A DNA stretch of 64,000 nt from Serinicoccus hydrothermalis (GTDB taxonomy: Bacteria; Actinomycetota; Actinomycetes; Actinomycetales; Dermatophilaceae), in the NCBI RefSeq assembly GCF_001685415.1, contig NZ_CP014989.1, forward strand, positions 930,001-994,000, read 5' to 3'. Position numbers and translations under genes: made by a program. The notes under the pieces are model-generated. The model did not search any database, was not told the DNA's origin, and saw only the letters and a program-made list of their open reading frames with translations. This document shows, piece after piece, positions 1-54,619 of this stretch. How positions within the stretch are numbered: the first letter of the stretch is position 1; every line of letters starts with the position of its first letter.

Positions 1-483
1 GTGCGCGAACCCCGTGAGCCACGGCAGGTAGGGCCGGCGCAGCCCCGCCCGTCCGGAGACGCTCAGCGCCCCGCGGGTGTTGCCGTGGTAGGAGCCCTGG
101 CGCCCGATGACGACGTCGCGGTCCTCCCCGCGCGCCAGGTGGTATGCCCGGGCCATCTTCAGCGCGGACTCCACCGCCTCGCTGCCTCCGGAGACGGGGT
201 AGATGCGCGGGTCGTCCAGGGGCAGCAGCGGGGCGAGGGTGTCGGCATACTCCTCGAGCACCTCGCTGGAGAAGGACGACCCGTGGACGTAGGCGACCCG
301 GGAGGCCTGCGCGGCCGCCGCCTCGACCACCTCGGTGCGGCCGTGGCCGATCCCCACGACGACCGCGCCGCCGGCCGCGTCGAGGTAACTGCGCCCCTCG
401 ACGTCGACCAGCTGCGCCCCGTGGCCGTGGTCGATGCGGACCCGCTCCGCGCCGCCGCGGGAGAAGACGTGCGGTGAGGCCAC
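1..483 (-). CDS. class III aminotransferase, 3' end outside window
   Basis: Reading from a GTG at 483 the frame stays open for 161 codons to the window edge, so only the N-terminal third is seen. It shows the N-terminal pattern of PLP-dependent fold-type I class III aminotransferases: VDVEGRSYLDAAGGAVVVGI near residues 31-50, then VSGGSEAVESALKMAR and GRQGSYHGNTRGALS, the region that binds the PLP phosphate. The GTG lies 8 nt after the stop of the upstream aminotransferase gene, so the two are probably co-transcribed with the aldehyde dehydrogenase before them. The catalytic lysine would lie beyond the window. The substrate cannot be told; an omega-amino acid or diamine is likely from the neighbours (inference). 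Confidence 0.85.
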   Translation of the reverse strand, partial: MASPHVFSRGGAERVRIDHGHGAQLVDVEGRSYLDAAGGAVVVGIGHGRTEVVEAAAAQASRVAYVHGSSFSSEVLEEYADTLAPLLPLDDPRIYPVSGGSEAVESALKMARAYHLARGEDRDVVIGRQGSYHGNTRGALSVSGRAGLRRPYLPWLTGFAH

Positions 484-491
484 GGCCGGGA

Positions 492-1853
492 TCAGCCCCG
501 TCGGTCGGCGGCCGCGGCGACCGCCTCGCCGAACAGACGCAGCCCGATCTCGGCCTCCTCCAGGGTGACGACCAGCGGCGGCGACATCCGGACGACGCTC
601 TCCCCCGCCTCGAGCACGAGCAGTCCGCGCTCGAAGGCCGCCTGCTGCACCGCCCCGGAGAGCGCGCCGTCGGCGAACTCGACACCGATCATGAGCCCGA
701 CACCGCGGACGTCCACGACGGCCTCCGGGTGCCGCGCCTGGATCTCGCGCAGCCCCGCCAGGATCCGGTCGCCCACCTCGCGGGCGTGCGCCAGCAGGCC
801 CTCGGACTCGATGACCCGCAGCGTCGCCAGGCCCGCGGCGCACGGCACCGGGCTGCCGCCGTAGGTCGACCCGTGGGTGCCGACGCCCCAGCTCTCCATG
901 AGCGAGGCCCGGGCCATGAAGGCCCCGAGCGGCAGGCCGGAGGCGATGCCCTTGGCCGAGAGCAGCATGTCCGGCTCGACACCGGTCTGCTCGATGGCCC
1001 ACATCGTGCCGGTGCGGCCCATCCCGCACTGGACCTCGTCGGCGACGAGCAGGATGCCGTGCTCGTCGCACAGCTCGCGCAGCCGCCGCATCCAGCCCTC
1101 GCCGGGCACGATGTAGCCGCCCTCGCCCTGGATCGGCTCGACGAAGATCGCGGCGACCTCGGAGGGGGCCACGTCGTGGCGGAAGATGGTCTCCAGCGCG
1201 TCGAAGGTCGCGGTGTCCTCCTCGGCGTGACCGGCGGCGACCTTGGCCGGGTCGGCATACGGGACGTGGATGACGCCGGGCAGCAGCGGACCGAAGCCCT
1301 GGTGGTACTTCGGCTTGGAGCTGGTCAGCGAGACCGCGCCCATGGTGCGTCCGTGGAAGGCGCCGTAGAAGCTGATGACGTAGGGCCGCTTCGTGGCGTA
1401 GCGGGCCAGCTTGAGCGCCCCCTCGACCGCCTCCGCGCCGGAGTTGGTGAGGAAGACGCGCACCGGCTCGCTCATGGGCGCGGTCGCGGCGAGCGCCCGG
1501 CACATCTGCGAGTAGGCGGGCAGGAAGAAGTCGCTGGCCGAGTAGTGCAGCAGGTCGGCGGCCTGGTCCTGGACCGCCCGCACGACCTCCGGGTGCGCGT
1601 GCCCGGTGGAGTTCACCGCGATGCCGGCGTTGAAGTCGAGGAAGAGGTTGCCGTCGACGTCCTCGATGCGGCAGCCCCGGGCGCGTTGCGGGGCGAAGGG
1701 GTAGGCGCGGGGCAGCGAGGGGCTGGTCACGGCCTGGTCCCCCGCCACGACCTCACGGGTGCGCGGGCCCGGCAGCTCGGTGCGCAGGTCCGGGACGGGG
1801 CGGGAGGGGTCGGCCCAGTCGGTGCTGGGGGCGGCCACGGCGGTGTCGGTCAT
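492..1853 (-). CDS. class III aminotransferase (GabT / acetylornithine-type)
   Basis: A 453-residue PLP-dependent transaminase that moves an omega-amino group to 2-oxoglutarate. The start chosen is the ATG at 1853; longer readings of this frame run into the upstream gene. Visible motifs are LTNSGAEAVEGALKLAR, FYGAFHGRTMGAVS, VADEVQCGMGRTG (PLP-pyridine Asp region) and LLSAKGIASGLPLGAF with the Schiff-base Lys301. Length fits the family (about 430-460). It follows a glutamate-semialdehyde dehydrogenase gene with a strong hairpin between them. Together they could convert ornithine or GABA-like amines through a semialdehyde to an acid (inference). 4-Aminobutyrate, ornithine or acetylornithine specificity cannot be separated from sequence alone. 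Confidence 0.88.
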   Translation of the reverse strand: MTDTAVAAPSTDWADPSRPVPDLRTELPGPRTREVVAGDQAVTSPSLPRAYPFAPQRARGCRIEDVDGNLFLDFNAGIAVNSTGHAHPEVVRAVQDQAADLLHYSASDFFLPAYSQMCRALAATAPMSEPVRVFLTNSGAEAVEGALKLARYATKRPYVISFYGAFHGRTMGAVSLTSSKPKYHQGFGPLLPGVIHVPYADPAKVAAGHAEEDTATFDALETIFRHDVAPSEVAAIFVEPIQGEGGYIVPGEGWMRRLRELCDEHGILLVADEVQCGMGRTGTMWAIEQTGVEPDMLLSAKGIASGLPLGAFMARASLMESWGVGTHGSTYGGSPVPCAAGLATLRVIESEGLLAHAREVGDRILAGLREIQARHPEAVVDVRGVGLMIGVEFADGALSGAVQQAAFERGLLVLEAGESVVRMSPPLVVTLEEAEIGLRLFGEAVAAAADRRG

Positions 1854-1881
1854 GGGGATCTCCTGGGTGGTGCTGGTATGC

Positions 1882-1922
1882 CCCCTCCCGACCGGACCGC
1901 AGGGGTGTCCGGTCGGGAGGGG
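1882..1922 (-). terminator. 16-bp perfect hairpin between dehydrogenase and aminotransferase genes
   Basis: Arms 1882-1897 and 1907-1922 are perfectly complementary (16 bp, GC-rich) around a 9-nt loop. There is no T-tract, as usual in actinobacteria. It lies between the stop at 1942 and the start at 1853 of two same-strand genes, so it may attenuate or stabilise the mRNA rather than end it. A GGTATGCC motif abuts it at 1874. Confidence 0.7.
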
Positions 1923-1941
1923 CGAGGTCGGGGTCGGGTGG

Positions 1942-3501: not shown

Positions 3502-3520
3502 GGCGTCGTCTCCTCACATC

Positions 3521-3682: not shown

Positions 3683-4519
3683 ATGGGGAGACACTCATCC
3701 GCAGAAGCCGCGGGCGCAGGCGCCCGGACCGTCTGGCTCGTCCTGGCGGCGGTCCTCGTGGCCGCGGCCGTGATCTGGTTCGGGGTGTCCCGTGGCCTCG
3801 GCGACGAGCCGGGCGACACCGCGCAGGAGACGACGGCGACCCAGGACGACGCCGAGGCGCTCGCCTCGGCCATGGACGGGCCTGACGGCGAGGAGTCGGC
3901 CGAGGCCGACACGGGCGACGCGCCCGAGGAGACCACCGAGGAGCCCGCGGCCACGCAGACCGAGCAGGCGCAGGACGCCGGTATGCCCGAGGAGGTCACC
4001 GCCTGCCTGGGCGAGGTGTCGGCCGGCACGGAGCGCGCGGCCGCCGCGGCGGAGTCGGCCGAGCACTGGCGGACCCACTACACCCAGATGGGGCTCATCG
4101 AGAGCGGTGAGATCACCCCGGAGGAGGCCGCCGGGCCGTGGGCGGAGACGCGTGAGGCCGGTCCGCAGGACCAGGAGCGCTTCTCCGCCGCGCAGGCGGC
4201 CTACGAGGACAGCGCCGGGTCGTGCGCGGACCTCGACGTCGCCGGCGCGGCCGCCGCGACCGACGACCTCGACGAGGGCGCGCTGCAGGCCTGCGTCGAC
4301 CGCAGCGCCGCCCTGGCGCTCGTCGGTGACCGCGGTGCGGCGGTCAACGAGGTGTGGAGCGGCCACCTCGTGCAGATGCGGTCCAAGGACGAGGCCGACC
4401 CCGAGGCATACCAGGCGGAGTGGCTGGCGATGGTGGACGCCGCCCCGGAGACGATGGAGCCCTACGACGCGGCGGTGGCCGAGCTCGAGGAGGCGCCCGC
4501 CTGCGAGCTCAGCTCGTGA
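3683..4519 (+). CDS. membrane-anchored acidic protein of unknown function
   Basis: 278 residues. There is one N-terminal membrane segment at about residues 15-36 (TVWLVLAAVLVAAAVIWFGV), then a very acidic Glu/Asp/Thr/Ala-rich linker to about residue 95, then a mostly helical extracytoplasmic part with four cysteines (EVTACLGEVS, GSCADLDVA, LQACVDRS and ACELSS). The start at the ATG 3683 places the membrane segment near the N-terminus after a short basic cytoplasmic tail. Its stop overlaps by 11 nt the stop of the convergent oligopeptidase gene. I do not recognise a named family. The even spacing of cysteines suggests one or two disulfides outside the cell (inference). Confidence 0.75.
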   Translation: MGRHSSAEAAGAGARTVWLVLAAVLVAAAVIWFGVSRGLGDEPGDTAQETTATQDDAEALASAMDGPDGEESAEADTGDAPEETTEEPAATQTEQAQDAGMPEEVTACLGEVSAGTERAAAAAESAEHWRTHYTQMGLIESGEITPEEAAGPWAETREAGPQDQERFSAAQAAYEDSAGSCADLDVAGAAAATDDLDEGALQACVDRSAALALVGDRGAAVNEVWSGHLVQMRSKDEADPEAYQAEWLAMVDAAPETMEPYDAAVAELEEAPACELSS

Positions 4520-6656
4520 CCGGGGCCTGCTGCTCCGGGCCGACCTGCGTGGCGCCGAGCTGGTCGAGCACGAAGGCGATCTCGAAGGCGGTCTCCCGCC
4601 ACGCGTCGTAACGGCCGGTCCGGCCGCCGTGGCCGGCCACCATCTCGGTCTTGAGCAGGATCGGCCGCTCCCCCGGGTCGCTGGTCACCGTCTCGCGCAG
4701 CCGGGCCACCCACTTCGCGGGCTCGACGTAGAAGACCCGGGTGTCGTTGAGCCCGGTGGTGGCCAGGATCGCCGGGTAGTCGACCGGGCGGATGTTCTCG
4801 TAGGGCGTGTAGGAGCGCATGAGCGCGTAGATCTCGGCCGACTCGACGGGGTTGCCCCACTCCTCCCACTCGCTGACGGTCAGCGGCAGCGAGGGGTCGA
4901 GGATCGTCGTGAGCGCGTCCACGAAGGCCACGCCCGCGTGCACGACGCGGAACCGCTCGGGCGCCAGGTTGAGGATCGCCCCCATGAGCAGACCACCGGC
5001 CGAGCGGCCCTCGGCCGCCAGCCGGTCCGGCGCCACCCAGCCGCTCTGCACCAGGTGGTCGGCGCACGCCACGAAGTCGGTGAAGGTGTTGGTCTTGTGC
5101 TCCATGCGGCCCTCCTCGTACCAGCCGCGGCCCATCTCGCCGCCGCCGCGGACGTGCGCGACGGCATACACGACCCCGCGGTCGAGGTAGGAGAGGCGGG
5201 AGACCGAGAAGTGCGGGTCGGCCGAGACCTCGTAGGAGCCGTAGCCGTAGAGCAGCCCCGGGTGGGTGCCGTCGGGCGCGAGGTCGCGCCGGGCGACGAG
5301 GGAGATCGGCACCCTGGTGCCGTCGTCCGCGGTGGCCCAGAGCCGGTGCTGCTGGTAGTCCTGCGGGTCGTAGCCGCCGAGCACCGGCTGGCGCTTGACC
5401 AGCTCGAGGGCGCCGCTGCCGAGGTCGAGGTCGTAGACGCTGCGGGGCGTCACCATCGACTCGACGAGCACCTGGAGGGTGTCGGTCTCGTAGGTCGGGT
5501 TGGCGCCGGACTCGATGGTGTAGACGGGCTCGTCCACCGGCACCTGGAAGCCGCCGCCCACGGGGCGACCCTCACCGGACAGCGGCAGCACGTGCAGCTG
5601 GGTGAGACCCTCGCGGCGCAGCGACAGGACGAGGTGGCCGGCGAAGGCCTCCACCCCGGCCAGCCGCACCCCGTCCTCGCCCGGGACGACGGTGGACCAG
5701 TCCTGCGCCGAGGTGCTGGAGACCGGCGCCACGGCCAGCGCGAAGTCGCGGTGGTCGCGGTTGTGCACGATCCACAGCCGGTCCCCCGCGGGCTCGACGT
5801 CGTACTCCACGCCCTCCTCGCGGGGCGCCACGACCCGGAAGGACCCGGTGGGCTCCTCGGCGTCGAGGATGCGGGTCTCCGAGGTGTTCTTGCTGCCGAG
5901 CCAGATGAGGACGTGCCGGTCGTCGCGCGAGCTCCCGACGCCCATCCAGAAGCGCTCGTCGTCCTCCTGGTGCACGAGCACGTCCGCCTCGGCCGGCGAC
6001 CCGACCTCGTGCCGCCAGATCTGGAAGGGGCGCCAGGCGTCGTCCACGCGCGTGTAGAAGAGGTGGTGCCCGTCGGCGCTCCAGGCGGTGCCGTAGCCGA
6101 TCCCGGTCACCGCCTCGTCGAGGACCTCGCCGGTCTCCAGGTCCTTGACCCGCAGGTCGAAGCGCTCGTCACCGGTCGTGTCGACGGCATACGCGAGGCG
6201 CCCGCCGTCCGGGGTGACGTCGAAGGCCCCGAGGCTGAAGAACTCCTCGCCCTGCGCCTCGGCGTTGCCGTCGAGCAGCACCTGCTCCCCCTCCGGGGCG
6301 GCGCCGGGGTCGAGCTCGGGACGCTGCGGCGAGTCGCCCACCGCGACGCGTCCGTGGACGGCGTACTGCTCACCCTCGATGGTGCGGGAGTAGTACCACC
6401 AGTCCCGGTGGCGCACGGGGACCGAGAGGTCGGTCTGCTGGACCCGGTCCTTGATCTCGGTGAAGATCCGCTCCCGCAGGCCGTCCAGGTGGCCGGTGCG
6501 CGCCTCGGTGTAGGCGTTCTCCGCCTCCAGGTGGGTGATGACGTCCGGGTCGGTCTTGTCCCGGAGCCACTCGTAGGGGTCGGTGACGTCCTCGCCGTGG
6601 TGGGAGCGGACGACGTCGACGCGGGCGGCGCGGGGCGGGGCGGTCTCATCGGTCAC
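4509..6656 (-). CDS. ptrB: S9A-family oligopeptidase (oligopeptidase B-like)
   Basis: 715 residues from the GTG at 6656; upstream extension of the frame has no homologous character. It carries the N-terminal DPYEWLRDK signature of prolyl oligopeptidase-type enzymes, a central beta-propeller region, and a C-terminal alpha/beta-hydrolase domain. The nucleophile is S552 in GRSAGGLLMG and the catalytic His is H676 in AGHGGRTGRY. The expected Asp lies near TTGLNDTRVFYVEP. Such enzymes are cytosolic and cleave short peptides, often after basic residues. Choosing oligopeptidase B over other S9A members rests on length and the RSAGG motif. It is divergent from the PP-loop gene, with 74 bp between the starts. 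Confidence 0.85.
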   Translation of the reverse strand: MTDETAPPRAARVDVVRSHHGEDVTDPYEWLRDKTDPDVITHLEAENAYTEARTGHLDGLRERIFTEIKDRVQQTDLSVPVRHRDWWYYSRTIEGEQYAVHGRVAVGDSPQRPELDPGAAPEGEQVLLDGNAEAQGEEFFSLGAFDVTPDGGRLAYAVDTTGDERFDLRVKDLETGEVLDEAVTGIGYGTAWSADGHHLFYTRVDDAWRPFQIWRHEVGSPAEADVLVHQEDDERFWMGVGSSRDDRHVLIWLGSKNTSETRILDAEEPTGSFRVVAPREEGVEYDVEPAGDRLWIVHNRDHRDFALAVAPVSSTSAQDWSTVVPGEDGVRLAGVEAFAGHLVLSLRREGLTQLHVLPLSGEGRPVGGGFQVPVDEPVYTIESGANPTYETDTLQVLVESMVTPRSVYDLDLGSGALELVKRQPVLGGYDPQDYQQHRLWATADDGTRVPISLVARRDLAPDGTHPGLLYGYGSYEVSADPHFSVSRLSYLDRGVVYAVAHVRGGGEMGRGWYEEGRMEHKTNTFTDFVACADHLVQSGWVAPDRLAAEGRSAGGLLMGAILNLAPERFRVVHAGVAFVDALTTILDPSLPLTVSEWEEWGNPVESAEIYALMRSYTPYENIRPVDYPAILATTGLNDTRVFYVEPAKWVARLRETVTSDPGERPILLKTEMVAGHGGRTGRYDAWRETAFEIAFVLDQLGATQVGPEQQAPVTS

Positions 6657-6730: not shown

Positions 6731-8989
6731 ATGATCGAGCGCCCCGTCCGTCACCGCCGGGCCGCCTGGGTGGTCCGGGGAGCCGGTCGGGGCGGCGCCC
6801 CGTCGCTGCGCCGGTCGCGGTATGCCCAGGTCCGGCTGCGGGAGGTCGAGGGCCTGCTCCTGGGCCCGGCCGAGGTGAGCGAGGTCTACGGACCGGCGCC
6901 CACGGCATACCTGCTGGAGGAGCTGCTGGACACGACCGGGGAGTGGGTGGGTCTGCTCGGTGACGACGCGGGGCGCACCTGGGTCGCGATGAGCGACTTC
7001 CACGGCTTCGGGCACCTCTTCTGGGTGGTGCGGCCCGCGGAGGACGGGCAGGACGTCTACCTCGGGACGACTCTGGACGCCGTCGTCGACCGGCTGCGCG
7101 CCGACGGCCACCGGCTCGAGGTGGACTGGGCGGTCGCCCACACCACGCTCGCCTCCAATCACGTGCTGCTGCGCAACCAGTGGTCGCGGCGCACGCTCGT
7201 CGAGGGGGTCCGCTGCCTTCGCCCGGACGAGCTGCTCGTCGTCGACCACCGGGGCGTGGGCACCGTGCCGCGCCCGATGACGACGGACCCGCAGGGCCGC
7301 TCCTACGACGAGCTGCTCGACGCGGGCGTCGAGCGCGCCGCGGGGCTGCTGACGCAGGTCGCCGACGCGGTGCCGGACGTGCGGGTCTTCGCCTCCGGCG
7401 GCAAGGACAGCCGGGTGGTGCTCTCCCTCCTGGACCACGCCGGCGTGCTCGGTCACGCCAGCTTTGTCGCCGCCGACCCGAGCCGGTGGGCCGACGCGGC
7501 GGGACGCAAGGAGCTGTGGCGCGACCTCGTCGTCTCCGACGAGCTGCGGACGGCCGCGGGGCGCCCGTGGTACGTCGAGCCCGACTACGAGGACCGGATG
7601 CTCTCCTTCGCCGAGAGCATCGCCCACCACCAGAGCTTCTACGCCGGCAGCCAGTGGGCCGCCTCTGCGGAGCGGCAGCTGCGCTGGCCGACGGTGCCCT
7701 ACGTCGCGGTCCGCGGCGGTGCCGGGGAGCTCATGCGGACGGCATACCGGGCGATCCGCACCGGCCGGCCCTTCTCGGTCATGGAGCAGCAGCCCGCGTC
7801 CCTCCCGGCGGACCTGCGCCGTCTGCACGGTCTGGTCGTCCACGGCGGCGTCACCCTGCCCGACGCCGCCCGCGCGGCCGGCGAGGAGGCGGTGGCCGAG
7901 GCCTTCTCCCTGCTGCCGGACGCCCCGGTCGGTGAGCAGGTCGACGCGCACTACCGGCTGCACCGCAACCGCTCGCACTTCGGCCACGTGCTGCACTCGG
8001 CGCACCGGCGCAGCCTGGCCCTGCACCCGCTGGCGACCCCGGAGTTCCTGCGGGCGGCGCAGCTGCTGCCCTTCGCCGAGCGGGACCTGGGACTGGCCGC
8101 CTTCGACGTGATCGAGCGGCTGCGGCCGGACCTCAACCGGCACCGCCTCGCCTCCGGCAGCTGGCCGGCGCAGGTGTGGGAGCGTCGCGGCGGCGCACCC
8201 TCCCCTCTGCCGCAGGCCCCGCGCGGTCCGTTCGGACGCGAGCGCGTGCCCTCCTACTTCGACGCCGAGGACCACAACCACTTCCGGCGCGGGTGGACCA
8301 GCGGGCCGCTGCGCTTCGACATCCGGACCGCCGCCCAGACCCGCGCCGTGCGCGACCTCTGGCGGCTGCACGAGCTGGCCCCGGAGCAGGCACCAGCCGG
8401 TCTCGTCGCGGACCTCGCCGACCTGGTGAGCCGCAACGCGCTCAACCCCGCCACCACCGTGGTCCGGCTCGCCTCGGTCCTGCGCGCGCTCGACGGTCCG
8501 GTGACCGACCCGCCGGCCGGGCTCGAGGTGCGGGTCAGCCCGGGGCGGGGTCTGCCGTGGGCGCGCCGGGTCGCGCCGGCGCCGGTGCGCACCGGCCCGC
8601 CGGGATCGGTCCGGGACCTGCGGGGGTATGCCGAGAGCGCCCCGTCGGCGGGGCTGGAGACCTTCGAGGTCGACCCGCGCACCGAGCCGGGGATCTACTG
8701 CCACCTGGAGCTCTCCGGCGGTGAGCTCCTCGCCCGACGGGTGGGCGCCGAGCGGGCCGGGTGGCGGCTGGAGCACACCTTCACCCTCGTGCGCGGGAAG
8801 GAGGAGGTGGCGGGAACCACCACCACGGACTCCCAGGTGTCCTTCGGGGCGCCGGGCGGGCCGGGACCGCACCGGGTGCTGCTCACCGCGCGCTGCCTGG
8901 ACCGTCCCGAGGTCGTGGTGCGGGCGACCTCTCCCCAGGTCGTCGTGCCCGTCCCCGGCCAGGACGCCGAGGACGGCGCCGCGTCGTGA
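6731..8989 (+). CDS. asparagine-synthase-like PP-loop ATP pyrophosphatase, unknown substrate
   Basis: 752 residues. A PP-loop occurs as FASGGKDSRVVLSLL, with S222-G-G-K-D-S227, the pyrophosphate-binding signature of N-type ATP pyrophosphatases (asparagine synthetase, ThiI, TilS). The preceding 220 residues (GEWVGLLGDDAG, LGTTLDAVVDRLRADGH) resemble a class II glutamine amidotransferase fold. However, the protein begins Met-Ile-Glu, so the essential N-terminal cysteine is missing and glutamine hydrolysis is not expected. The last 180 residues look like an added beta-rich domain (EPGIYCHLELSGGELLARRV). Its role is probably ATP-dependent amide or adenylate chemistry on an unknown substrate (inference). 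It stands alone between ptrB and dnaE with no pathway neighbour. Confidence 0.7.
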   Translation: MIERPVRHRRAAWVVRGAGRGGAPSLRRSRYAQVRLREVEGLLLGPAEVSEVYGPAPTAYLLEELLDTTGEWVGLLGDDAGRTWVAMSDFHGFGHLFWVVRPAEDGQDVYLGTTLDAVVDRLRADGHRLEVDWAVAHTTLASNHVLLRNQWSRRTLVEGVRCLRPDELLVVDHRGVGTVPRPMTTDPQGRSYDELLDAGVERAAGLLTQVADAVPDVRVFASGGKDSRVVLSLLDHAGVLGHASFVAADPSRWADAAGRKELWRDLVVSDELRTAAGRPWYVEPDYEDRMLSFAESIAHHQSFYAGSQWAASAERQLRWPTVPYVAVRGGAGELMRTAYRAIRTGRPFSVMEQQPASLPADLRRLHGLVVHGGVTLPDAARAAGEEAVAEAFSLLPDAPVGEQVDAHYRLHRNRSHFGHVLHSAHRRSLALHPLATPEFLRAAQLLPFAERDLGLAAFDVIERLRPDLNRHRLASGSWPAQVWERRGGAPSPLPQAPRGPFGRERVPSYFDAEDHNHFRRGWTSGPLRFDIRTAAQTRAVRDLWRLHELAPEQAPAGLVADLADLVSRNALNPATTVVRLASVLRALDGPVTDPPAGLEVRVSPGRGLPWARRVAPAPVRTGPPGSVRDLRGYAESAPSAGLETFEVDPRTEPGIYCHLELSGGELLARRVGAERAGWRLEHTFTLVRGKEEVAGTTTTDSQVSFGAPGGPGPHRVLLTARCLDRPEVVVRATSPQVVVPVPGQDAEDGAAS

Positions 8990-16560: not shown

Positions 16561-17490
16561 TCAGGGTCGGACGACGTCCAGCGCTTCCTGCAGGTCCTCG
16601 GGGTAGGGCGACTCGAACTCGACCTGCTCCCCGCTGCCCGGGTGCAGGAAGCCGAGCTTCACCGCGTGCAACCACTGCCGATCCAGCCCGAGGTCGCGGG
16701 CCAGCGTCGGGTCCGCGCCGTAGGTGAGGTCGCCGCAGCACGGGTGCCGCAGCGCCGAGAAGTGCACCCTGATCTGGTGGGTGCGCCCGGTCTCCAGGTG
16801 GATCTGCAGCAGGCTCGCCCGCCGGTGCGCCTCGAGCAGCTCGTAGTGGGTGATGCTGGGTCGGCCGCTGGTCATCACCGCGAAGCGGTAGTCGTGGCCG
16901 GGGTGCCGCCCGATGGGGGCGTCGATCGTCCCCTCGTGCGGGTCGGGCAGCCCCTGCACCAGCGCGTGGTAGGTCTTCTCGACGACCCGGTCGCGGAAGG
17001 CCTGCTTGAGCACGGTGTATGCCCGTTCGGACTTGGCCACGACCATGAGCCCGCTCGTGCCCACGTCCAGACGTTGCACGATGCCCTGCCGCTCCGGCGC
17101 GCCCGAGGTCGAGATCCGGTAGCCCGCGGCGGCCAGACCGCCGACCACCGTCGGCCCGGTCCAGCCCACGCTGGGGTGGGCCGCGACGAAGGCCGGCTTG
17201 TCGACGACGACGATGTCGCTGTCGTCGTGAACGATCCGCATGCCCTCGACCGGCTCGGCCACTACCTCGAGCCCGGCGGGTGGGCCGGGCGCGGGCAGCT
17301 CCACCTCGAGGAAGGCGCCGGCGGTGAGCCGGTCGGACTTGCCGACCACCCGCCCGTCCACCTGCACCAGCCCCTGGCCGGCCAGCGTGGCGGCCTTGGA
17401 GCGGGACAGCCCGAGCAAGCGCGGCAGCGCCGCGTCGACGCGCTCGCCCTCGAGGCCGTCGGGGACGGTGAAGACCCGCGACTCGCTCAC
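16561..17490 (-). CDS. rluD: RluD-family pseudouridine synthase
   Basis: 309 residues from the GTG at 17490. An S4 RNA-binding domain comes first ([20 protein letters not shown]), then the RluA/RluD catalytic domain with D142 in [13 protein letters not shown], the nucleophilic aspartate of this family. The substrate-loop motif [16 protein letters not shown] is also seen. These enzymes isomerise uridines in 23S rRNA; which positions cannot be told here. The GTG start overlaps the lspA stop (GTGA at 17490-17487), so translation is coupled. The lspA-rluD order is common in actinobacteria. Confidence 0.92.
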
Positions 17491-18511: not shown

Positions 18512-18627
18512 GCCTCGCCCTTCGTTCGCAGCTGGCCCGTCCTGGGGACGAGCGATGGTGGCGGCAGAATAGATCAGCGCTCAGACGTTGACAACGCAGG
18601 GCGACACCCCCCTCCCCCGGGTATGCC

Positions 18628-43185: not shown

Positions 43186-43228
43186 GACCGGGCATACCTT
43201 GCGTCCGGGACACACGGTATGTCCGGTC
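43186..43228. terminator. bidirectional hairpin between zwf and the sigma factor gene
   Basis: A 13-bp inverted repeat with one mismatch (43186-43198 and 43216-43228) around 17 nt, between converging genes. The arms contain the GGCATACC word and its near copy GGTATGTC. Confidence 0.6.
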
Positions 43229-44956: not shown

Positions 44957-45070
44957 GGGCGAAACCAACTCTTTCTGACGACGCAGGTATGCCGCGGCCG
45001 GGGCAGCGAGGCGCCCCGACGCGGTTCAGGAAGTGGTGAGCGGTGCCGGGTGCGGCACGCGACTGACACC

Positions 45071-47655: not shown

Positions 47656-48309
47656 ATGACGTCTCCGCAGCGGCCTCCGGGGACGCGCGTCCTCTGGCCG
47701 CTCGCGGCGCTGCTCACCCTGGCCGGTCTGGTGCTCCTCACCCTGTCCCTCACCGGCCCCGGCGACCGGTCCGGCGCGGACATGGTGGGCGCCCGGCCCG
47801 GTGACCTGGTGAGCGTGGGCGAGGAGGGGATGTCGGTCTGGTCCCGCAGCCCGGACACCCGGGCGGACACGGTCTGCACGCTCGACGACCAGGCCCTGGA
47901 CCGGCCGACGGAGGACTTCACCACGCGTGTCGCCGGCGAGGAGTTCCACGAGGTCGCCCGCACCGGCGGCAGTCACCCCACCGGGGACCAGCCGCTGGTG
48001 TGCGACACCGAGGACACGGTCTACGCCGGGCCGTTCGGGCCGGCGACCGCGCCGACGGGGCTGCGCGGCGGCACCGGTCTCACGCTCGGCCTGCTCCTGC
48101 TCCCCCTGGGCCTGGTCTGCGCGGTGCTGGCCGTGCTCGCCCGCCGGCGCACGGTCGAGGTGGAGCAGGGGCCCGACCCGGGGGCATACACCCTCGACCC
48201 GCGCACCTCTCCCCCGCCGCAGGACCCCTACGGCCCGCCGCCCTCCGGTCCACCGGGTCAGGCGGGCGGACCCACGGGTCCGCGCTACGACCTGCCGCCG
48301 CCGCCCTGA
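47656..48309 (+). CDS. two-pass membrane protein of unknown function
   Basis: 217 residues. Membrane segments at about residues 14-35 and 138-163 flank an extracytoplasmic region with two cysteines (DTVCTLDDQ and PLVCDTEDT). The C-terminal cytoplasmic tail is Pro/Gly-rich (SPPPQDPYGPPPSGPPG). No family is recognised. The stop overlaps the convergent PAC2 gene by 25 nt. Confidence 0.75.
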   Translation: MTSPQRPPGTRVLWPLAALLTLAGLVLLTLSLTGPGDRSGADMVGARPGDLVSVGEEGMSVWSRSPDTRADTVCTLDDQALDRPTEDFTTRVAGEEFHEVARTGGSHPTGDQPLVCDTEDTVYAGPFGPATAPTGLRGGTGLTLGLLLLPLGLVCAVLAVLARRRTVEVEQGPDPGAYTLDPRTSPPPQDPYGPPPSGPPGQAGGPTGPRYDLPPPP

Positions 48310-49268
48310 CCGGCCGGGGGCACGTCGTCCTCGTCGGGACCCTCGGCCCCCTCGGTCTCCTCGACGGCCTCCGGGTCGCGCAGGTATGCCTCGAGCTGGG
48401 CGCCGATCTCGTCCGCGCTGGGCAGGTTGGCGACCTCGGCGGCGAGCAGGCTCTTGCGGCGCTGGCCCTCGACGAAGTGGTCGTAGCGCTGCTCCAGCCC
48501 CTCGACGACCTCGCGCGCCTCGTCGTTGCTCGCGAGCTCCTCCTCGATCCGGCCACGGGTGAGCCCGGCCATCGCGACGAGGTCGGTGGTGGGGATCACG
48601 AGGCCGGTGAGGTCCATGAGCGCGTCGGCGGCGGCCACGACGGCGTCGCCGAACTGCGTCTCGGCGAGGTAGTGCGGCACGTGCACCGCGACGCCCATGG
48701 TGAGCAGCCCGGACTCGGCGAGCCGCAGGTGCAGCAGCGAGTCGGCGCTGGAGGGGATGCGCACCTGCCCGAAGATCGGGGTGTGCTCACCGAGCACCGA
48801 GGAGTCGCTGGCGAAGCGGGTCGTGCCGACCGGACGCGTGTGCGGCACCGCCATGGGGATGCCGTGGGCGCTGACCATCCGCCGGACCCCGAAGGCCATC
48901 CCGAGCTGGCGCACCGCCTCGACGAAGCCCTCCCACCGGAAATCCGGCTCCACGCCGTGCAGGAGCAGGAAGGGCTCGCCGGAGGCGTCCATCATCCGGT
49001 AGAGGATGAGCGAGGGATCGTCGTAGTCGGTGTAGTGGTCGGAGTCGAAGGTCATGAGCGGGCGCCGCGACCGGTAGTCGACGAGGTCGTCGACCTCGAA
49101 CGTCGCGACCACCTCGTGCTCGAGCGTGTCGAGCAGGTGCTCGGCCAGCGTGGAGCGCACCTGGCCGGCATCGAGGAATCCGTCCAGCGAGACCAGCAGC
49201 AGGGGTGCGGGCTTCGGCTGGCGGGCGGCGTCCGCCTCCAGCCGGAACAGCGGCGAGTGCGTCGTCAC
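48285..49268 (-). CDS. PAC2 family protein (proteasome-assembly-chaperone-like)
   Basis: 327 residues from the GTG at 49268, preceded by GAGGAGA. It begins LLLVSLDGFLDAGQV and contains LLLHGVEPDFRWEGFVEAV and GIPMAVPHTRP, the pattern of actinobacterial PAC2 proteins. They resemble eukaryotic proteasome assembly chaperones. Direct evidence for function in bacteria is lacking. No proteasome genes are in the window. Confidence 0.85.
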   Translation of the reverse strand: MTTHSPLFRLEADAARQPKPAPLLLVSLDGFLDAGQVRSTLAEHLLDTLEHEVVATFEVDDLVDYRSRRPLMTFDSDHYTDYDDPSLILYRMMDASGEPFLLLHGVEPDFRWEGFVEAVRQLGMAFGVRRMVSAHGIPMAVPHTRPVGTTRFASDSSVLGEHTPIFGQVRIPSSADSLLHLRLAESGLLTMGVAVHVPHYLAETQFGDAVVAAADALMDLTGLVIPTTDLVAMAGLTRGRIEEELASNDEAREVVEGLEQRYDHFVEGQRRKSLLAAEVANLPSADEIGAQLEAYLRDPEAVEETEGAEGPDEDDVPPAGQGGGGRS

Positions 49269-49366
49269 GGTGTCTCCTCTCGGGGTCTGCCCAGCACAAC
49301 GTCGGTCCGACCCCCAGGATTCCATCTCGGCGCGGCACGGGCAGGTCCCGATGATAGGAACGGGGT

Positions 49367-51502
49367 ATGCCCTCTCCCCGGACCGCCTTCCACGACCTGT
49401 CCCACTACGTCGCCCTCCCGCGCGTCTCGGGGCTCGCCCTGAGCCCGGACGGCACCCGCCTGGTCACCTCGGCGGCGACCCTCAACCCCTCCGGCACCGG
49501 CTACGTCTCGGCGCTGTGGGAGGTGGACCCGACGGGCGAGCGGGAGGCATACCGGATCACGCGCAGCGCCAAGGGCGAGAGCGGCGCGGCCTTCGGAGCC
49601 GACGGCGACCTCTACTTCACCTCGAGCCGCCCCGACCCCGACGACGAGGAGGACGCGGCCGAGGGTGCGGCACTCTGGACCATCCCGGGCCACGGCGGTG
49701 AGGCCCGGGTGCTGCTGCGCCGCCCCGGGGGCGTCGCGGCGGTGACCGCCGCCCGGGACGCCGACCGGGTCCTCGTCACCGCGGGGCTGCTGCCCGGCGC
49801 CTCCACCGAGGCCGAGCACGCGCAGCTCGCGGAGGGCCGCACGAAGGCCAAGGTGGACGCGATCCTGCACACGACCTACCCCATCCGGTTCTGGGACCAC
49901 GACCTCGGCCCGGAGCGGCCCCAGGTCTTCGCCCTCGACGACGGCCCCGCGCCGGGCGTCGACGCCGTGCCCGAGGACGACCCGGACGGCCAGCCCGGGG
50001 CCGCGCTGCCGGGCACGACCGACCGGGCGCGCGAGGTGCACCTTCGCCTGCTCACCGGCGACCTGCCCGCGCCCCTGCACGAGCCCAGCCCGCAGGTCGC
50101 CCCGGACGGCAGCTTCATGCTCGTCGGGCTCACCGTCCCGCAGGGCCGCGCCGACCTGCGCGAGGGCATCGTGCGGGTCGACCTGGACGGCGGCGGGACG
50201 CGCACGCTCTTCGACACCGCGGGCCAGGAGGCGCACGCCGGGCCGGTGAGCCCGGACGGCTCGCGCGCCGTCGTGGTCGTCAGCGAGATCACCTCGCCGA
50301 CGACCGCGCCGCACCCGCGGATGCACCTCATGGACACCGCGACCGGGGAGCTCACCCCGCTCGCGCACGACTGGGACCGCTGGGCGCAGCCGGTCGCCTG
50401 GACCCCGGACGGCGGCTCGGTGCTCGTCCTCGCCGACAGCGAGGGACGGAGGCCGGTCTTCCGGGTCGACGTCGCCACCGGCGAGGTCACCCGGGTCACC
50501 CGGGACGACGCCGCGTGGAGCGACCTCGTCCTCTCCCCCGACGGCACCACCGCCTACGGCGTGCGCTCCTCCTACCTCTTTCCGCCCGAGCTGGCCCGCG
50601 TGGACCTCGCGAGCGGCGACGTCACCCGGCTGCCCGGCCCGGCCGAGCGTCCCGAGGTCCCGGGCCGGCTGGAGGAGGTCGAGACCACGGCGGAGGACGG
50701 CAGCCCGGTCCGCGCCTGGCTGGCGCTCCCCGAGGAGGCGCCCGCCTCGTCGGCCGGGCACCCCACCCTGCTGTGGGTCCACGGCGGCCCGCTCGGCTCG
50801 TGGAACGCCTGGACCTGGCGGTGGAACCCCTGGCTCATGACCGCCCAGGGGTATGCCGTCCTGCTGCCGGACCCGGCGCTGTCCACCGGCTACGGGCAGG
50901 ACTTCGTGCAGCGCGGCTGGGGCGCGTGGGGCCAGGCGCCCTACACCGACCTCATGGCGATCACCGATGCCGCGCTCGCGCGCGACGATCTCGACGCCGA
51001 GCGCACGGCGGCGATGGGCGGCTCCTTCGGTGGCTACATGGCCAACTGGATCGCCGGGCACACCGACCGGTTCCGGGCCATCGTCACGCATGCCTCGCTG
51101 TGGGCGCTGGACGGCTTCGGCCCCACGACGGACGCCGCGTTCTACTGGCAGCGGGAGATGACCGAGGAGATGGGGCAGGCCAACAGCCCGCACCGTTTCG
51201 TCGAGGACATCGTCACCCCGATGCTCGTCATCCACGGCGACAAGGACTACCGCGTGCCGATCGGCGAGGGGCTGCGCCTCTGGTACGAGCTGCTCTCCCG
51301 CTCCGGGCTGCCGCAGGCGGAGGACGGCACCACCGCGCACCGCTTCCTCTTCTTCCCGCACGAGAACCACTGGATCCTGAAGCCGCAGCACGCGAAGGTC
51401 TGGTATGCCACGGTCAGCGCCTTCCTCGCCGAGCACGTGCTGGGCCAGGAGCCGCCGCCGGCCGCCGAGCACCTCGGCCTCGCCCCGCCGGAGGCCGACT
51501 GA
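49367..51502 (+). CDS. S9C-family prolyl oligopeptidase / acylaminoacyl-peptidase
   Basis: 711 residues from the ATG at 49367, which has a leaderless-type layout (TAGGAA 6 nt upstream). An N-terminal beta-propeller built of SPDG-type blades (ALSPDGTRLVTSA, VSPDGSRAVVVV) precedes an alpha/beta-hydrolase domain. S553 in GGSFGGYMANW is the nucleophile, Asp in VIHGDKDYRVPIG, His in FFPHENHWI. It cleaves short or N-blocked peptides in the cytosol. No signal peptide is seen. Confidence 0.92.
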   Translation: MPSPRTAFHDLSHYVALPRVSGLALSPDGTRLVTSAATLNPSGTGYVSALWEVDPTGEREAYRITRSAKGESGAAFGADGDLYFTSSRPDPDDEEDAAEGAALWTIPGHGGEARVLLRRPGGVAAVTAARDADRVLVTAGLLPGASTEAEHAQLAEGRTKAKVDAILHTTYPIRFWDHDLGPERPQVFALDDGPAPGVDAVPEDDPDGQPGAALPGTTDRAREVHLRLLTGDLPAPLHEPSPQVAPDGSFMLVGLTVPQGRADLREGIVRVDLDGGGTRTLFDTAGQEAHAGPVSPDGSRAVVVVSEITSPTTAPHPRMHLMDTATGELTPLAHDWDRWAQPVAWTPDGGSVLVLADSEGRRPVFRVDVATGEVTRVTRDDAAWSDLVLSPDGTTAYGVRSSYLFPPELARVDLASGDVTRLPGPAERPEVPGRLEEVETTAEDGSPVRAWLALPEEAPASSAGHPTLLWVHGGPLGSWNAWTWRWNPWLMTAQGYAVLLPDPALSTGYGQDFVQRGWGAWGQAPYTDLMAITDAALARDDLDAERTAAMGGSFGGYMANWIAGHTDRFRAIVTHASLWALDGFGPTTDAAFYWQREMTEEMGQANSPHRFVEDIVTPMLVIHGDKDYRVPIGEGLRLWYELLSRSGLPQAEDGTTAHRFLFFPHENHWILKPQHAKVWYATVSAFLAEHVLGQEPPPAAEHLGLAPPEAD

Positions 51503-51529: not shown

Positions 51530-52747
51530 TCAGGCTGGGTGCCACCCCGCGGCGTCGCCCCAGGCACGCGCCCGGACGAAGGCCTCCGCGAACCACGGCT
51601 CCTTCGCCTGCGCGTAGTCCTTCCGCGGCGTCCCCGCCGCGACGTGGCCGGCCTTGAGCCGCGCATACCGGTCCCTCTCGTCCGGGACCGCCCGCAACCA
51701 GTCGCGGAAGAGCAGGGCGAGGGTCCACGCGGGCGAGTCGACCGACCGGACGTGGACGTGGGTGACGCGGGCCGGGTCGGCGTCGCCGAGGAGCCGTTTC
51801 GGCCATGTCTCCGGACTGTCCCGGGGCAGCCCGGCCGGCCCGGGGTGGGCGTGGTCCCACGAGTCGTCGTGGACGGTCACGAAACCGCGTCGCGCCAGCG
51901 CCGACCTGACCTTCTCGTCGTCGAGATCACCGAGGTCACGGACGACCAGCTGGAGGTCGACCACGTCCTTCGCGGCCAGCCCCGGGACGCTCGTGCTGCC
52001 GATGTGGTCGGCGCGCACGAGGGCGGCTGCGGGGACGGCGGCGCGCAACCGGGCCAGGAGCCGCTCCGCCTGGGCGGGCCAGGTCGGGTCGGGCGGGACC
52101 ACGACGAGCTCCTCCGGGGCCCTCGCCGCCTCCCCCGCGCGCAGCCACCGCTCGAAGGGCAGCAGCCGGTCCTGCCAGAGGCGGTCGACCTGCTCGTGGA
52201 GCTCCTCCACGGTGCCGGAGTTGTCGAGCAGCACGTCGGCGGCCGCGGCGCGGGCGGCGTCGTCGGCCTGGGCGGTGATCCGGGAGCGCGCCGCCTGCTC
52301 GTCCATGCCGCGAAGTTCCACCAGACGGCGCAACCGCTCCTCCTCGGGCACGTCGACGATGACGGTGAGCGCGTAGTCGGCGGCCAGACCCATCTCCACG
52401 AGCAGCGGGATGTCGTGGACGACGACCGCGTCGTCCGGCGCGGCGTCCATGAGCTCGGCGGAGCGGCGCCGGATCTGCGGGTGCGTGATGGCCTCCAGGT
52501 CACGCCGGGCCTGCTCGTTCGCGAAGACGACCCGGCCCAGCGCCGGCCGGTCCAGGGACCCGTCGGCGGCCAGCACGTCGGGACCGAAGCGCTCGGCGAT
52601 CTGCTCCAGCGCCGGCATACCGGGCTCGACCACCTCGCGCGCCACCGCGTCGGCGTCCACGACGACCGCACCGAGCTCGGCCAGCCGGGCCGACACGGTG
52701 GACTTGCCCGACCCGATGCCGCCGGAGAGCCCGACGCGCAACGTCAT
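51530..52747 (-). CDS. coaE: dephospho-CoA kinase fused to a GrpB (UPF0157) domain
   Basis: 405 residues from the ATG at 52747. Residues 1-200 are CoaE, the last step of CoA synthesis, with P-loop GLSGGIGSGKST and VVHDIPLLVEMG. From about residue 212 comes a GrpB-type nucleotidyltransferase-like domain (RADHIGSTSVPGLAAKDVVDLQLVV, broken by Gly). The same CoaE-GrpB fusion is known in mycobacteria, where the second domain aids the first. The start overlaps the stop of the preceding gene (ATGA). Confidence 0.94.
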   Translation of the reverse strand: MTLRVGLSGGIGSGKSTVSARLAELGAVVVDADAVAREVVEPGMPALEQIAERFGPDVLAADGSLDRPALGRVVFANEQARRDLEAITHPQIRRRSAELMDAAPDDAVVVHDIPLLVEMGLAADYALTVIVDVPEEERLRRLVELRGMDEQAARSRITAQADDAARAAAADVLLDNSGTVEELHEQVDRLWQDRLLPFERWLRAGEAARAPEELVVVPPDPTWPAQAERLLARLRAAVPAAALVRADHIGSTSVPGLAAKDVVDLQLVVRDLGDLDDEKVRSALARRGFVTVHDDSWDHAHPGPAGLPRDSPETWPKRLLGDADPARVTHVHVRSVDSPAWTLALLFRDWLRAVPDERDRYARLKAGHVAAGTPRKDYAQAKEPWFAEAFVRARAWGDAAGWHPA

Positions 52748-53418
52748 GCCGGCGTCTCTCCGCTGCCCTCGCGTCCCTGCCAGGTGCAGACGCAGACCTC
52801 GTTGCCCTCGGCGTCCGCGAGGACCCACCAGGACGGGGCGAACTCGTCGGTGACCAGGTGGCCGCCGGCCGCGAGCGCGGCCACGACCCGCTCCTGCGCG
52901 AGGTCGTGCGGCACGTCGAGGTCGAGGTGGAAGCGGCCCCGCTGGGTACGGGCCTCGTCCATCTGCTGGAACCACATCGGCGCCAGCCGGCCGGCCGGGT
53001 CCTCGAGGTGGTCCTCCTCGGTCTCGGCATACCCCAGGACCGCGGCCCAGAACGGCTCGACCGAGGGGGCGTCCATCACGTCGAGGGCGACCTCGAGCTC
53101 GGAGACCTCGTGCGGCCTCGCCTCCAGCCCGAGCTCGGCCGCGGCGGCGCTGACCGCGACCGCCAGGGCACGGTCACGGGTGGTGAGCGCGCCGACGTCG
53201 TGGCTGACCGTCGAGACGGTGACGTGCGGGTAGCGCAGGTCGACGTCCGGGTGGTGGTCCACCTCGTCGGCCAGCTCGGCGATCCGCGCCACCAGGCGCG
53301 CCCCGGCCGCGAAGTCTCCCGTCGCGAAGCGGGCGTGCAGCCGCCCGCGCAGCACCCGCCAGTCGGCGAGCTCGGGATCGGTGGACAGGGCGTGGTCGGT
53401 GAGCGTCTGGGAGGACAT
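52744..53418 (-). CDS. pterin-4a-carbinolamine dehydratase domain fused to a VOC/glyoxalase-like domain
   Basis: 224 residues from the ATG at 53418. The N-terminal 100 residues match pterin carbinolamine dehydratase, with active-site pattern ADEVDHHPDVDLRYPHV. The C-terminal half (VALDVMDAPSVEPFWAAVLGY, then RGRFHLDLDVPHD) is a VOC-type fold resembling glyoxalases and bleomycin-resistance proteins. The fusion recurs in actinobacteria, but its substrate is unknown. It is coupled to coaE. A set of 22-bp repeats lies upstream. Confidence 0.85.
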   Translation of the reverse strand: MSSQTLTDHALSTDPELADWRVLRGRLHARFATGDFAAGARLVARIAELADEVDHHPDVDLRYPHVTVSTVSHDVGALTTRDRALAVAVSAAAAELGLEARPHEVSELEVALDVMDAPSVEPFWAAVLGYAETEEDHLEDPAGRLAPMWFQQMDEARTQRGRFHLDLDVPHDLAQERVVAALAAGGHLVTDEFAPSWWVLADAEGNEVCVCTWQGREGSGETPA

Positions 53419-53440
53419 ACCGCGACTCTGCCAGATCCCG

Positions 53441-53528
53441 ACCGGCCGCACGGTTTGCGACCACCGGCCGCACGGTATGCGCCGACCGGCCGCACGGTCT
53501 GCGTCCACCAGCCGCGCGGTATGCCTAG
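53441..53528. repeat. four tandem 22-bp repeats
   Basis: Units begin at 53441, 53463, 53485 and 53507. Each has the core ACCGGCCGCACGGT followed by TTGCG, ATGCG or CTGCG; the fourth has two changes. They fill the gap between the pterin dehydratase-VOC gene and the PIN gene, and the last unit runs over the PIN stop codon. Two units contain GGTATGC. Confidence 0.92.
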
Positions 53529-53908
53529 CTGACGACCTCGATACCGAGCTTTCGGGCAACGCGCCCCAGCCCCCGGTCGAAGGTCGCGAGCCGGGCCCGG
53601 TGCTGCTGCGCGCTGATGGCGACGCAGCAGTCCGGCATCCTCAGCGCGGTCGTGACACGAAGGTCGGCGAGGGCCCCGGCGCTCTCGACCGGCAGGGGCA
53701 GCGTCTCGATCTGCAGGTCCTGCATGAGCAGCTCGACGTCCTCGCCGCGGCCGACCCGGGTCGGCGCCACGAGGATCTCGGCGTGCGTGAGCACGTCGAC
53801 CGCGAAGGTGTCTGCGGACTCCCGGGTGAGCAGGGCGAGCGCCGCGCCGTGGTGGGCGTCGTCACCGTCGAGATCGCCGATGAGGACGCTGGCATCGAGC
53901 ACGATCAC
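53525..53908 (-). CDS. PIN-domain ribonuclease toxin (VapC-like)
   Basis: 127 residues. It begins MIVLDASVLIGDLDGDDAHH with the first acidic residue D5, then a central Glu in LTHAEILVAPTRVG, and a late Asp in ARLATFDRGLGRVARKLG, the acidic site of PIN ribonucleases. VapC toxins cut tRNA or rRNA. Its ATG overlaps the stop of the small upstream gene (ATGA), the usual antitoxin-toxin arrangement. Confidence 0.88.
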   Translation of the reverse strand: MIVLDASVLIGDLDGDDAHHGAALALLTRESADTFAVDVLTHAEILVAPTRVGRGEDVELLMQDLQIETLPLPVESAGALADLRVTTALRMPDCCVAISAQQHRARLATFDRGLGRVARKLGIEVVS

Positions 53909-54174
53909 CTCGGCCAGTCCTCGCGCAGCTGCTCCAGGTGGTACGTCGGGTAGACCCCGGTCAGGGTCCCCCGGTGCCGACGCAACGCCGTGAGCCGGTC
54001 GGCGTGCTCGTCACGCTGCTGGCTCACGATCAGTCGATGGCCCTCGAGAGCCAGGCGGGTGATGAGCTGACCGCGGCTGAGGTCGGGCCATCTCGCCTGG
54101 GCGACGTCGAGCGCGTCGGAGAGCTCGTCGATCTCCGTGACCTGGTGCCGGGGGCGAGGGTGGGCATATCCAAG
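53905..54174 (-). CDS. probable VapB-type antitoxin
   Basis: 89 residues if the TTG at 54174 is used, with AGAGGG 7 nt upstream; the frame stays open further but loses any ribosome-binding site. The middle (VTEIDELSDALDVAQARWPDLSRG) resembles a ribbon-helix-helix head that would bind DNA, and the basic tail (RLTALRRHRGTLTG) could bind the toxin. Named mainly from its coupling to the PIN gene. The start is uncertain. Confidence 0.65.
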   Translation of the reverse strand, partial: LGYAHPRPRHQVTEIDELSDALDVAQARWPDLSRGQLITRLALEGHRLIVSQQRDEHADRLTALRRHRGTLTGVYPTYHLEQLREDWPR

Positions 54175-54619
54175 TGTATGCCCTCTGCTCAGGGGTGGTA
54201 CCCCCCTGTGGACAACTGATCCAGTGGGGTAGTCGGTCGGGCTGGGCGCGGCTGCTCGCAGGGAGGGGGTGGCGGTGCCGGGCGATGACCTCAAACAGAC
54301 GACTGCAAGGCACTAAGCCAACTCAGGTACGTGCACGGGGTTCTGCCGCTCCCCGCGGGGCCTGTCAGCCGGCCGGAGGGACGCTCCACCAACTGCCCAC
54401 CACCAGGTGCCTGTCCAGCTCCCGAGAACAGCCGATCAAGAAATGAACGCGGGCTCTCAGCCGAGCAGCTCGCACCGTCACCCCGATTCACACACGCCAC
54501 ACCAGCAACACCCCCTTGGACTTACTCACCTAGTCGGCCCACGGACAGGGAGATCAACTGTCCGTCAGCAGTGAAGTACCTGTCCGCCTACAGGGAGATT
54601 GGCATGTCCGCTAGCAGCT
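54175..54619. other. intergenic region at the edge of the accessory block
   Basis: 445 bp with no convincing gene. GC content falls along it. From 54545 to 54618 two related 28-29-bp direct copies begin ACAGGGAGAT and end GTCCG..AGCAG, 45 bp apart. The first copy lies within GGACAG-CTGTCC, a 6-bp inverted repeat. No tRNA, integrase or clear att site is seen. Confidence 0.5.

Follow-up and report, generated by a model that had tools for sequence, protein, structure and literature searches.

The 64-kb window analyzed here (bases 930,001-994,000 of the single 3.6-Mb contig of Serinicoccus hydrothermalis, hereinafter the home genome, G000) is dotted with an 8-base word, GGTATGCC, present in 34 copies, 18 on the forward and 16 on the reverse strand, against 0.90 expected from dinucleotide shuffles (maximum of 4 among 100). 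These figures bear out the count of about 34 (about 18 and 16) given in a preliminary description of this DNA, which was also right in placing three copies of the inner hexamer GTATGC at 54.2-64 kb and in seven of its eight example coordinates; its 40839 should read 40837, and the hexamers number 61 rather than about 55. The home genome as a whole holds 2,180 copies of GGTATGCC (1,065 + / 1,115 -; 606 per Mb) and 11 (4 + / 7 -) of the reversed word that served as control. The core of the word is the 7-mer GTATGCC, seen 433 times in a 464-kb sample of the genome (20 evenly spaced 20-kb stretches plus the window) vs 24.2 expected under an order-2 Markov model (~18-fold), with a preceding base that is mostly G (G 306, C 59, T 43, A 25) and a weak bias in the flanks beyond it. 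Its density in the home genome is ~0.94/kb, equal on the two strands; so great an excess of a short word, found on either strand alike, is what characterizes a DNA uptake sequence (DUS). In the same sample the one-off neighbors of GTATGCC are, taken together, below expectation (617 seen vs 778 expected), with individual excesses of GTAGGCC (128 vs 62), GTATGTC (32 vs 9.2), and GTATGAC (25 vs 14).

The density of GTATGCC is 0.910/kb within genes and 0.904/kb between them, as judged from 550 kb of the home genome, in which 440 genes were crudely called. The preliminary description had conceded that a count near a codon-aware expectation would undo its reading; these genes contain 419 copies vs 41.6 ± 6.1 after synonymous-codon shuffling, i.e., ten times the expectation. 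Moreover, 172 of their 281 TAT codons and 47 of their 97 ATA codons lie inside words, which, together with the shuffles, indicates that the word shapes codon use and not vice versa.

At the end of the window lies an accessory block that does not align to either of two sister species. The earlier claim that the word is absent from this block holds for the 8-mer (0 vs 6.2 expected at the density of positions 1-54,181; P=0.002) and has to be softened for the 7-mer core, which is merely reduced (2 seen vs 9.2 expected). Likewise, home-genome GTATGCC stands at 1.00/kb in sister-aligned DNA (148 words) vs 0.55/kb elsewhere (23 words), a poverty in foreign DNA as in DUS, with the proviso that unshared DNA is not all foreign. 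The positions of the words and of the other features of the window are collected in the table below. Within the block, an IS21-type transposase gene adjoins one for an ABC transporter with an FtsX-like permease. The 22-bp repeats with which the word had earlier been associated amount to one local tandem array directly ahead of the block, a single unit of which holds the full 8-mer. A further array of 33-bp tandem repeats is found within a long open frame.

Table. Words and other features in the 64-kb window.
Feature	Position	Strand	Remark
GGTATGCC	141..148	+	
GGTATGCC	1875..1882	+	
GGTATGCC	3980..3987	+	
GGTATGCC	4405..4412	-	
GGTATGCC	6819..6826	+	
GGTATGCC	6904..6911	-	
GGTATGCC	7741..7748	-	
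GGTATGCC	8625..8632	+	
GGTATGCC	11604..11611	-	
GGTATGCC	18620..18627	+	
GGTATGCC	19830..19837	-	
GGTATGCC	21234..21241	-	
GGTATGCC	22037..22044	-	
GGTATGCC	25451..25458	+	
GGTATGCC	26832..26839	+	
GGTATGCC	29749..29756	+	
GGTATGCC	31377..31384	+	
GGTATGCC	31697..31704	-	
GGTATGCC	32809..32816	+	
GGTATGCC	34224..34231	-	
GGTATGCC	36895..36902	-	
GGTATGCC	39760..39767	-	
GGTATGCC	40837..40844	-	
GGTATGCC	41438..41445	+	
GGTATGCC	43191..43198	-	
GGTATGCC	44986..44993	+	
GGTATGCC	48383..48390	+	
GGTATGCC	49364..49371	+	
GGTATGCC	49546..49553	-	
GGTATGCC	50850..50857	+	
GGTATGCC	51402..51409	+	
GGTATGCC	52614..52621	-	
GGTATGCC	53026..53033	-	
GGTATGCC	53518..53525	+	
GTATGCC (core 7-mer)	244..250	-	without leading G
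GTATGCC	1254..1260	-	
GTATGCC	5163..5169	-	
GTATGCC	6186..6192	-	
GTATGCC	9414..9420	-	
GTATGCC	12798..12804	+	
GTATGCC	17017..17023	+	
GTATGCC	26414..26420	-	
GTATGCC	27757..27763	-	
GTATGCC	29418..29424	-	
GTATGCC	32919..32925	-	
GTATGCC	36390..36396	-	
GTATGCC	38455..38461	-	
GTATGCC	39642..39648	+	
GTATGCC	41593..41599	-	
GTATGCC	48183..48189	-	
GTATGCC	54176..54182	+	block edge
GTATGCC	57280..57286	-	within accessory block
GTATGCC	60572..60578	-	within accessory block
Accessory block	54182..64000	.	without 8-mer; GC 62-66% up to 60 kb
22-bp tandem units	53438..53524		CCGACCGGCCGCACGGTNTGCG-like
33-bp tandem repeats	18862..19072		five overlapping copies
ABC transporter with FtsX-like permease	59094..61210		
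IS21-type transposase	61407..62960		

Only one actinobacterial family shows strong enrichment of GGTATGCC, with a patchy distribution among its members. Among 396 genomes of the phylum that were scanned, the highest count among the 392 outside the family is 408 (in 7.5 Mb, with 146 of the reversed control), and the densest of these 392 reaches, by a reading of the table of counts, ~64 per Mb vs 606 in the home genome. Several of them exceed their own reversed control few-fold (e.g., G361, 188 vs 43; G314, 58 vs 4); none comes near the home density, so that the equal frequency in unrelated genomes, which the preliminary description had also named as counting against it, is not seen. The family itself ranges from 6 to 2,228 copies over 149 genomes, with 312-2,180 in all nine genomes of the window's genus, one of which is Serinicoccus kebangsaanensis (G439). 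A survey of 80 named loci gives 10-24 copies of GTATGCC per ~21 kb in Serinicoccus, Knoellia, Terrabacter, Terracoccus, Humibacillus xanthopallidus, Intrasporangium oryzae, Tetrasphaera australiensis, and Phycicoccus elongatus (strain Lp2 being G460), with 0-7 of the reversed word in these loci (the weakest contrast being that of Terrabacter sp. MAHUQ-38, 12 vs 7), and 0-2 copies per ~21 kb in Nocardioides, Phycicoccus flavus, and Intrasporangium flavum.

A first grouping of genomes as low in the word used the GGTATGCC count alone, and some genomes so grouped carry other words. A word scan of G410 and G420, both poor in GTATGCC, recovered GGATGCCG; across the 149 family genomes, CGGATGCC numbers 1,955-2,445 in five (G410, G420, G456, G495, and G510) and 142-631 in 142, while the two mixed genomes, G436 and G471, combine 1,137 and 1,074 copies of it with 523 and 508 of GGTATGCC. 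G396 gives a weak GGATGCCG signal. G429, with only six copies of GGTATGCC, has CGAAGGGG at 0.88/kb, balanced between strands (87 / 88), in 113 genic copies vs 26.4 ± 3.7 shuffled and 62 intergenic ones. Two further words are put forward as dialect words tentatively, having been chosen from top-word lists of 48-76 kb in which many words were scanned, with 2.6-4 times the count in synonymous shuffles: GTACGCC, at 1.0-1.3/kb in G417, G418, and G432 (genic 44, 43, and 57 vs 17, 16, and 14 shuffled), and GTACGGCG, a near-palindromic word centered on CGTACG, in G461, the sister of the GTATGCC-rich G488 (29 vs 8.4 shuffled). No outstanding word was found in 48-68 kb of G437, G441, G408, G403, G307, G404, and G407. 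GTATGCC and GGATGCCG, and tentatively GTACGCC and GTACGGCG, are dialects with a common core within one family, as is typical of DUS; CGAAGGGG has no core in common with GTATGCC.

A quick tree of 35 genomes, based on one pair of AdnAB-type proteins, implies at least three changes to or from the GGATGCCG class, and pairs genomes across words (G410 with the GTATGCC genome G415, G420 with G431, and G495 with G436). In the compared sister pairs, new-word sites are mostly at new positions: over 20.3 kb aligned between G431 and G420, the 16 GGATGCC of G420 stand opposite GTATGCC once, GGATGCC three times, and other sequences 12 times, and over 7.9 kb aligned between G415 and G410 one of four GGATGCC stands opposite GTATGCC. 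Where the home genome was compared with its two sisters (139.6 / 120.5 kb aligned at 82 / 84% identity), 59 of 121 and 78 of 117 home sites are kept, as are 59 of 84 and 78 of 95 sites counted from the sister side. The control words were chosen without regard to codon position; the one-off words among them are kept at rates of 0.40 and 0.36, and the composition-like 7-mers at 0.50 and 0.54 on average. In view of the latter, home-side retention toward G511 is no better for the word. Lost home sites show two-base differences more often than one-base ones (32 vs 11; 14 vs 12), the reverse of composition-matched 7-mers (P=3e-8 and 0.005), with 9 vs 7 and 8 vs 7 on the sister side.

The preliminary description had noted that the two orientations are nearly equal, and so they are, yet orientation matters in that copies in the same orientation exclude each other. 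With 519 GTATGCC sites in 550 kb of the home genome, same-orientation pairs number 1 at 0-120 bp (32.5 expected), 12 at 120-250 bp (35.0), 36 at 250-500 bp (66.8), and 111 at 500-1,000 bp (131.8), and are as expected beyond 1 kb. The corresponding opposite-orientation pairs number 31 (31.5), 37 (33.9), 70 (64.8), and 153 (127.8). Overall, 49 of the 185 pairs at 20-500 bp are same-oriented vs 90.9 ± 6.7 when orientations are permuted over fixed positions; the window itself has 1 same and 12 opposite pairs below 500 bp. The bias recurs in the two sister species, G511 and G439 (23/71 vs 35.3 ± 4.1, P=0.0015), and in 24 other loci (27/112 vs 53.7 ± 5.2; none of 2,000 permutations as low); it is weaker in GGATGCCG loci (27/78 vs 37.8 ± 4.4, P=0.012) and less sure for CGAAGGGG (29/78 vs 37.5 ± 4.3, P=0.029). 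The near-total lack at 0-120 bp is a feature of the home genome, the 24 loci having 6 such pairs vs 17.2 expected.

Control words behave otherwise: in the home genome GTCTGCC is neutral and GTAGGCC, contrary to the real word, clusters in like orientation (23 of 26 pairs same at 20-500 bp); CTCGTCG clusters slightly, and GATCGCC shows 6 same (8.3 expected) and 31 opposite pairs (8.3 expected) at 0-60 bp owing to its own palindrome; GTACGCC, in three genomes lacking it as a word, has 8 of 10 pairs same. At distances under 60 bp, opposite pairs somewhat exceed expectation in the 24 other loci (15 vs 8.6) and in GGATGCC loci (10 vs 4.6), as do those of CGAAGGGG below 250 bp in G429 (37 vs 20.0). 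The hairpin or structural role suggested earlier therefore finds no support in the home genome, where opposite pairs at 0-120 bp are at expectation, though the relatives' loci show the said excess. A head-to-head arrangement of the type III kind was rejected, convergent and divergent pairs being about equal up to 1 kb (17/14, 22/15, 30/40, 41/37, and 35/40). The same-orientation ratio of 0.03 at 0-120 bp in the home genome is close to that of an unenriched word (24.2/433), suggesting that a same-orientation neighbor abolishes the drive and an opposite one does not. Exclusion of this kind, with none between opposite copies, suggests that the word is read per strand, by a strand-specific reader that reaches over a few hundred bases. 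Such an exclusion curve uses sequence alone to gauge how far a recognition machine reaches, and is applicable to any iterated word.

The preliminary description had offered four roles for the word (uptake or self-recognition, methylase site, nucleoid-protein site, and structural element), an interpretation that is supported in part, with self-recognition faring best in view of the dialects and of the way shared DNA differs from unshared DNA. On slightly better than even odds, in our judgment, this family of Gram-positive actinobacteria has a polar genomic self-code of lineage-specific words of 7-8 bases at ~1/kb, sensed on each strand separately across distances of some hundreds of bases. Its words would be at least GTATGCC, GGATGCCG, and CGAAGGGG, and perhaps GTACGCC and GTACGGCG. 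The best explanation of this code, to which we assign a probability of roughly 0.4, is a polar self-recognition word that most likely serves DNA uptake in natural transformation. We propose that a protein or machine of the family might read GTATGCC, usually as GGTATGCC, on one strand and in one direction, with selection or molecular drive favoring DNA in which each strand bears one word per stretch of a few hundred bases. This need would fit a process acting on short fragments, which might be sequence-biased uptake by the ComEC route, with a pilus that is not of type IVa but perhaps of the Flp/Tad kind; the word would then decide which strand or side enters. ComEC is encoded in all 42 genomes tested, and, in the accessible part of the source, competence of the actinobacterium Micrococcus luteus uses Flp pili (PMC4322843).

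Several observations weigh against uptake. ComEC is present also in genomes without a visible word and hence does not explain its distribution. Type IVa pilins (PF07963, N_methyl) were found in 0 of 43 genomes, in a search that did not take in Flp/Tad and ComEA, and PilM (PF11104) in 0 of 42; a type IVa pilus receptor was rejected on these counts, and the known kind of receptor, a minor pilin, is accordingly missing among the families searched. Haemophilus uptake is reported, in what is available of PMC1939737, to be independent of the orientation of the uptake signal sequence (USS), whereas orientation is decisive here, as judged indirectly from same-orientation exclusion alone. Given these two departures, we do not file the word as a DUS. 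Exclusion is also lacking for GTACGCC (49 of 100 pairs same vs 49.9 expected) and GTACGGCG (8 of 14 vs 6.8), and for GGATGCCG lies mainly at 250-1,000 bp, with hardly any below 250 bp (16 vs 20.3 expected). Finally, a search under the family name, which did not extend to genus names, returned no on-topic literature on natural competence.

The main rival, which we regard as doubtful, is a Chi-like polar signal for DNA-end processing that would be read by the helicase-nuclease AdnAB, such that self DNA is protected and recombined and foreign DNA degraded; the part of a 2026 article open to us (PMC13309787) describes as unclear how AdnAB carries out its counterpart of Chi recognition. PDDEXK_1 genes are present in 44 of 44 genomes. 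All 35 genomes that were extracted have a neighboring AdnAB-type gene pair, a label given on account of the PDDEXK_1 domain and the UvrD-like nature of the partner (the 70 proteins include a short one of 892 aa, in G307). Polarity with independent orientations, to which the exclusion points indirectly, would be expected of a Chi site, and like the Chi of RecBCD/AddAB this appears to be a polar word of the core genome. Chi words are species-specific, and CGAAGGGG of G429 resembles the staphylococcal Chi GAAGCGG, which we count in favor of this rival; we know of no Chi for AdnAB. However, classical Chi is strand-biased, and here, with strand balance judged per sampled segment as the origin was not located, no consistent bias is seen (extremes of 15:4 and 6:14 in opposite directions, segments balanced on average, and near-equal genome totals); nor is there the strong orientation bias of FtsK-orienting sites. 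The strong enrichment and short-range exclusion are also unlike Chi: a reach of only ~0.3-0.5 kb would be short for resection, so that selection on short fragments would suit better than kilobase resection of the Chi type, and Chi of Escherichia coli lacks clear exclusion in 500 kb (6 of 11 pairs same at 20-500 bp vs 8.2 ± 1.3 permuted, P=0.10, with low power). In the 35 genomes the word classes are not cleanly told apart by any AdnAB residue (the best column, AdnX 414, scores 0.65 of 1), and of the parallel AdnAB changes in two sister pairs (23 and 29 columns) none is convincing.

RecBCD-Chi was rejected since RecC does not follow the word. It is found in 8 of 23 GTATGCC-rich genomes (and so absent from 15), in none of the 4 GGATGCCG genomes, and in 11 of the remaining 17, whence RecBCD is not the common reader; AddAB was not separately searched. 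As an aside, RecC is commoner in these 17 genomes poor in both main words than in the word-rich ones (8/27).

An iterated word like the highly iterated palindrome 1 (HIP1) of cyanobacteria, with some other intracellular role (a repair tag, or the site of a nucleoid or replication protein) and read per strand by a DNA-binding protein, seems unlikely. HIP1 and the alternate HIPs are likewise genome-wide octamers at ~1/kb that are swapped for another word in some lineages, according to what could be consulted of PMC4390886, and strand-directed repair would be well served by a requirement that is short in range and acts per strand. Nonetheless, HIP1 is palindromic and tied to a methylase, whereas the word here is asymmetric and the three methylase classes tested, which did not include PF00145, are dispensable. 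Taken alone, such a role also fails to account for the reduced word density of unshared DNA, although this could result from recent arrival.

It is highly improbable that a DNA methyltransferase, whether an orphan or part of a restriction-modification system, has the word as its site. Asymmetric 7-bp words are typical of enzymes methylating one strand, and the enriched C-to-T neighbor GTATGTC is a possible hint of a methylated cytosine. Against this, PF01555, PF02384, and PF07669 are all without a match (E 0.001; PF00145 and smaller classes not searched) in five word-rich genomes, namely G431, G085, G434, and G402, with 938-1,259 GGTATGCC, and G410, with 2,078 CGGATGCC, and hence no gene of these three families is common to all word-bearing genomes. 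The earlier suggestion of a methylase is thereby disfavored within the classes searched, cytosine-5 methylases not being among them; these families were also set aside as candidates as their presence does not follow the word (PF01555 in 42 genomes, PF07669 and PF02384 in 44). A by-product of codon or dipeptide usage or of mutation bias, as the mostly genic location and commonest frame of the copies (Tyr-Ala, 171/416) might suggest, is already refuted by the synonymous shuffles and the family-wide counts, along with the equal intergenic density, the absence of the word from relatives of similar composition, and the lack of an excess in the summed one-off neighbors.

No published account of the GTATGCC/GGTATGCC word turned up among the matches listed, as judged by title. 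We know of no uptake-type or Chi-type code in this actinobacterial group, nor of an earlier same-strand exclusion rule. Should this prove to be an uptake word, sexual isolation based on DNA dialects would have evolved in Actinobacteria too, and without pili of type IVa; should it be Chi-like, it would offer a handle on the regulation of AdnAB. The sister pair G431/G420, with different words and AdnAB-type proteins ~81% identical, provides a natural experiment for finding the reader.

In the literature covered, genome-wide self words with dialects have been described for two Gram-negative families, as DUS in Neisseriaceae and USS in Pasteurellaceae, and, as palindromes, for cyanobacteria. The word differs from DUS/USS in its actinobacterial host, in the lack of type IVa pilins among the genomes searched, and in an exclusion confined to same-orientation copies, and the likeness drawn here is one of sequence. 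It nevertheless recalls these systems in being a short non-palindromic word present at ~1/kb on both strands, in genic and intergenic DNA alike, that is poorer in unshared DNA and has dialects with a common core, some apparently wordless relatives, and genomes mixing two dialects. Similar dialects are known for the uptake sequences of Neisseriaceae (PMC3630211), and the spacing of USS is similar to the density seen here (PMC7811141), as far as the accessible portions of these two sources go.

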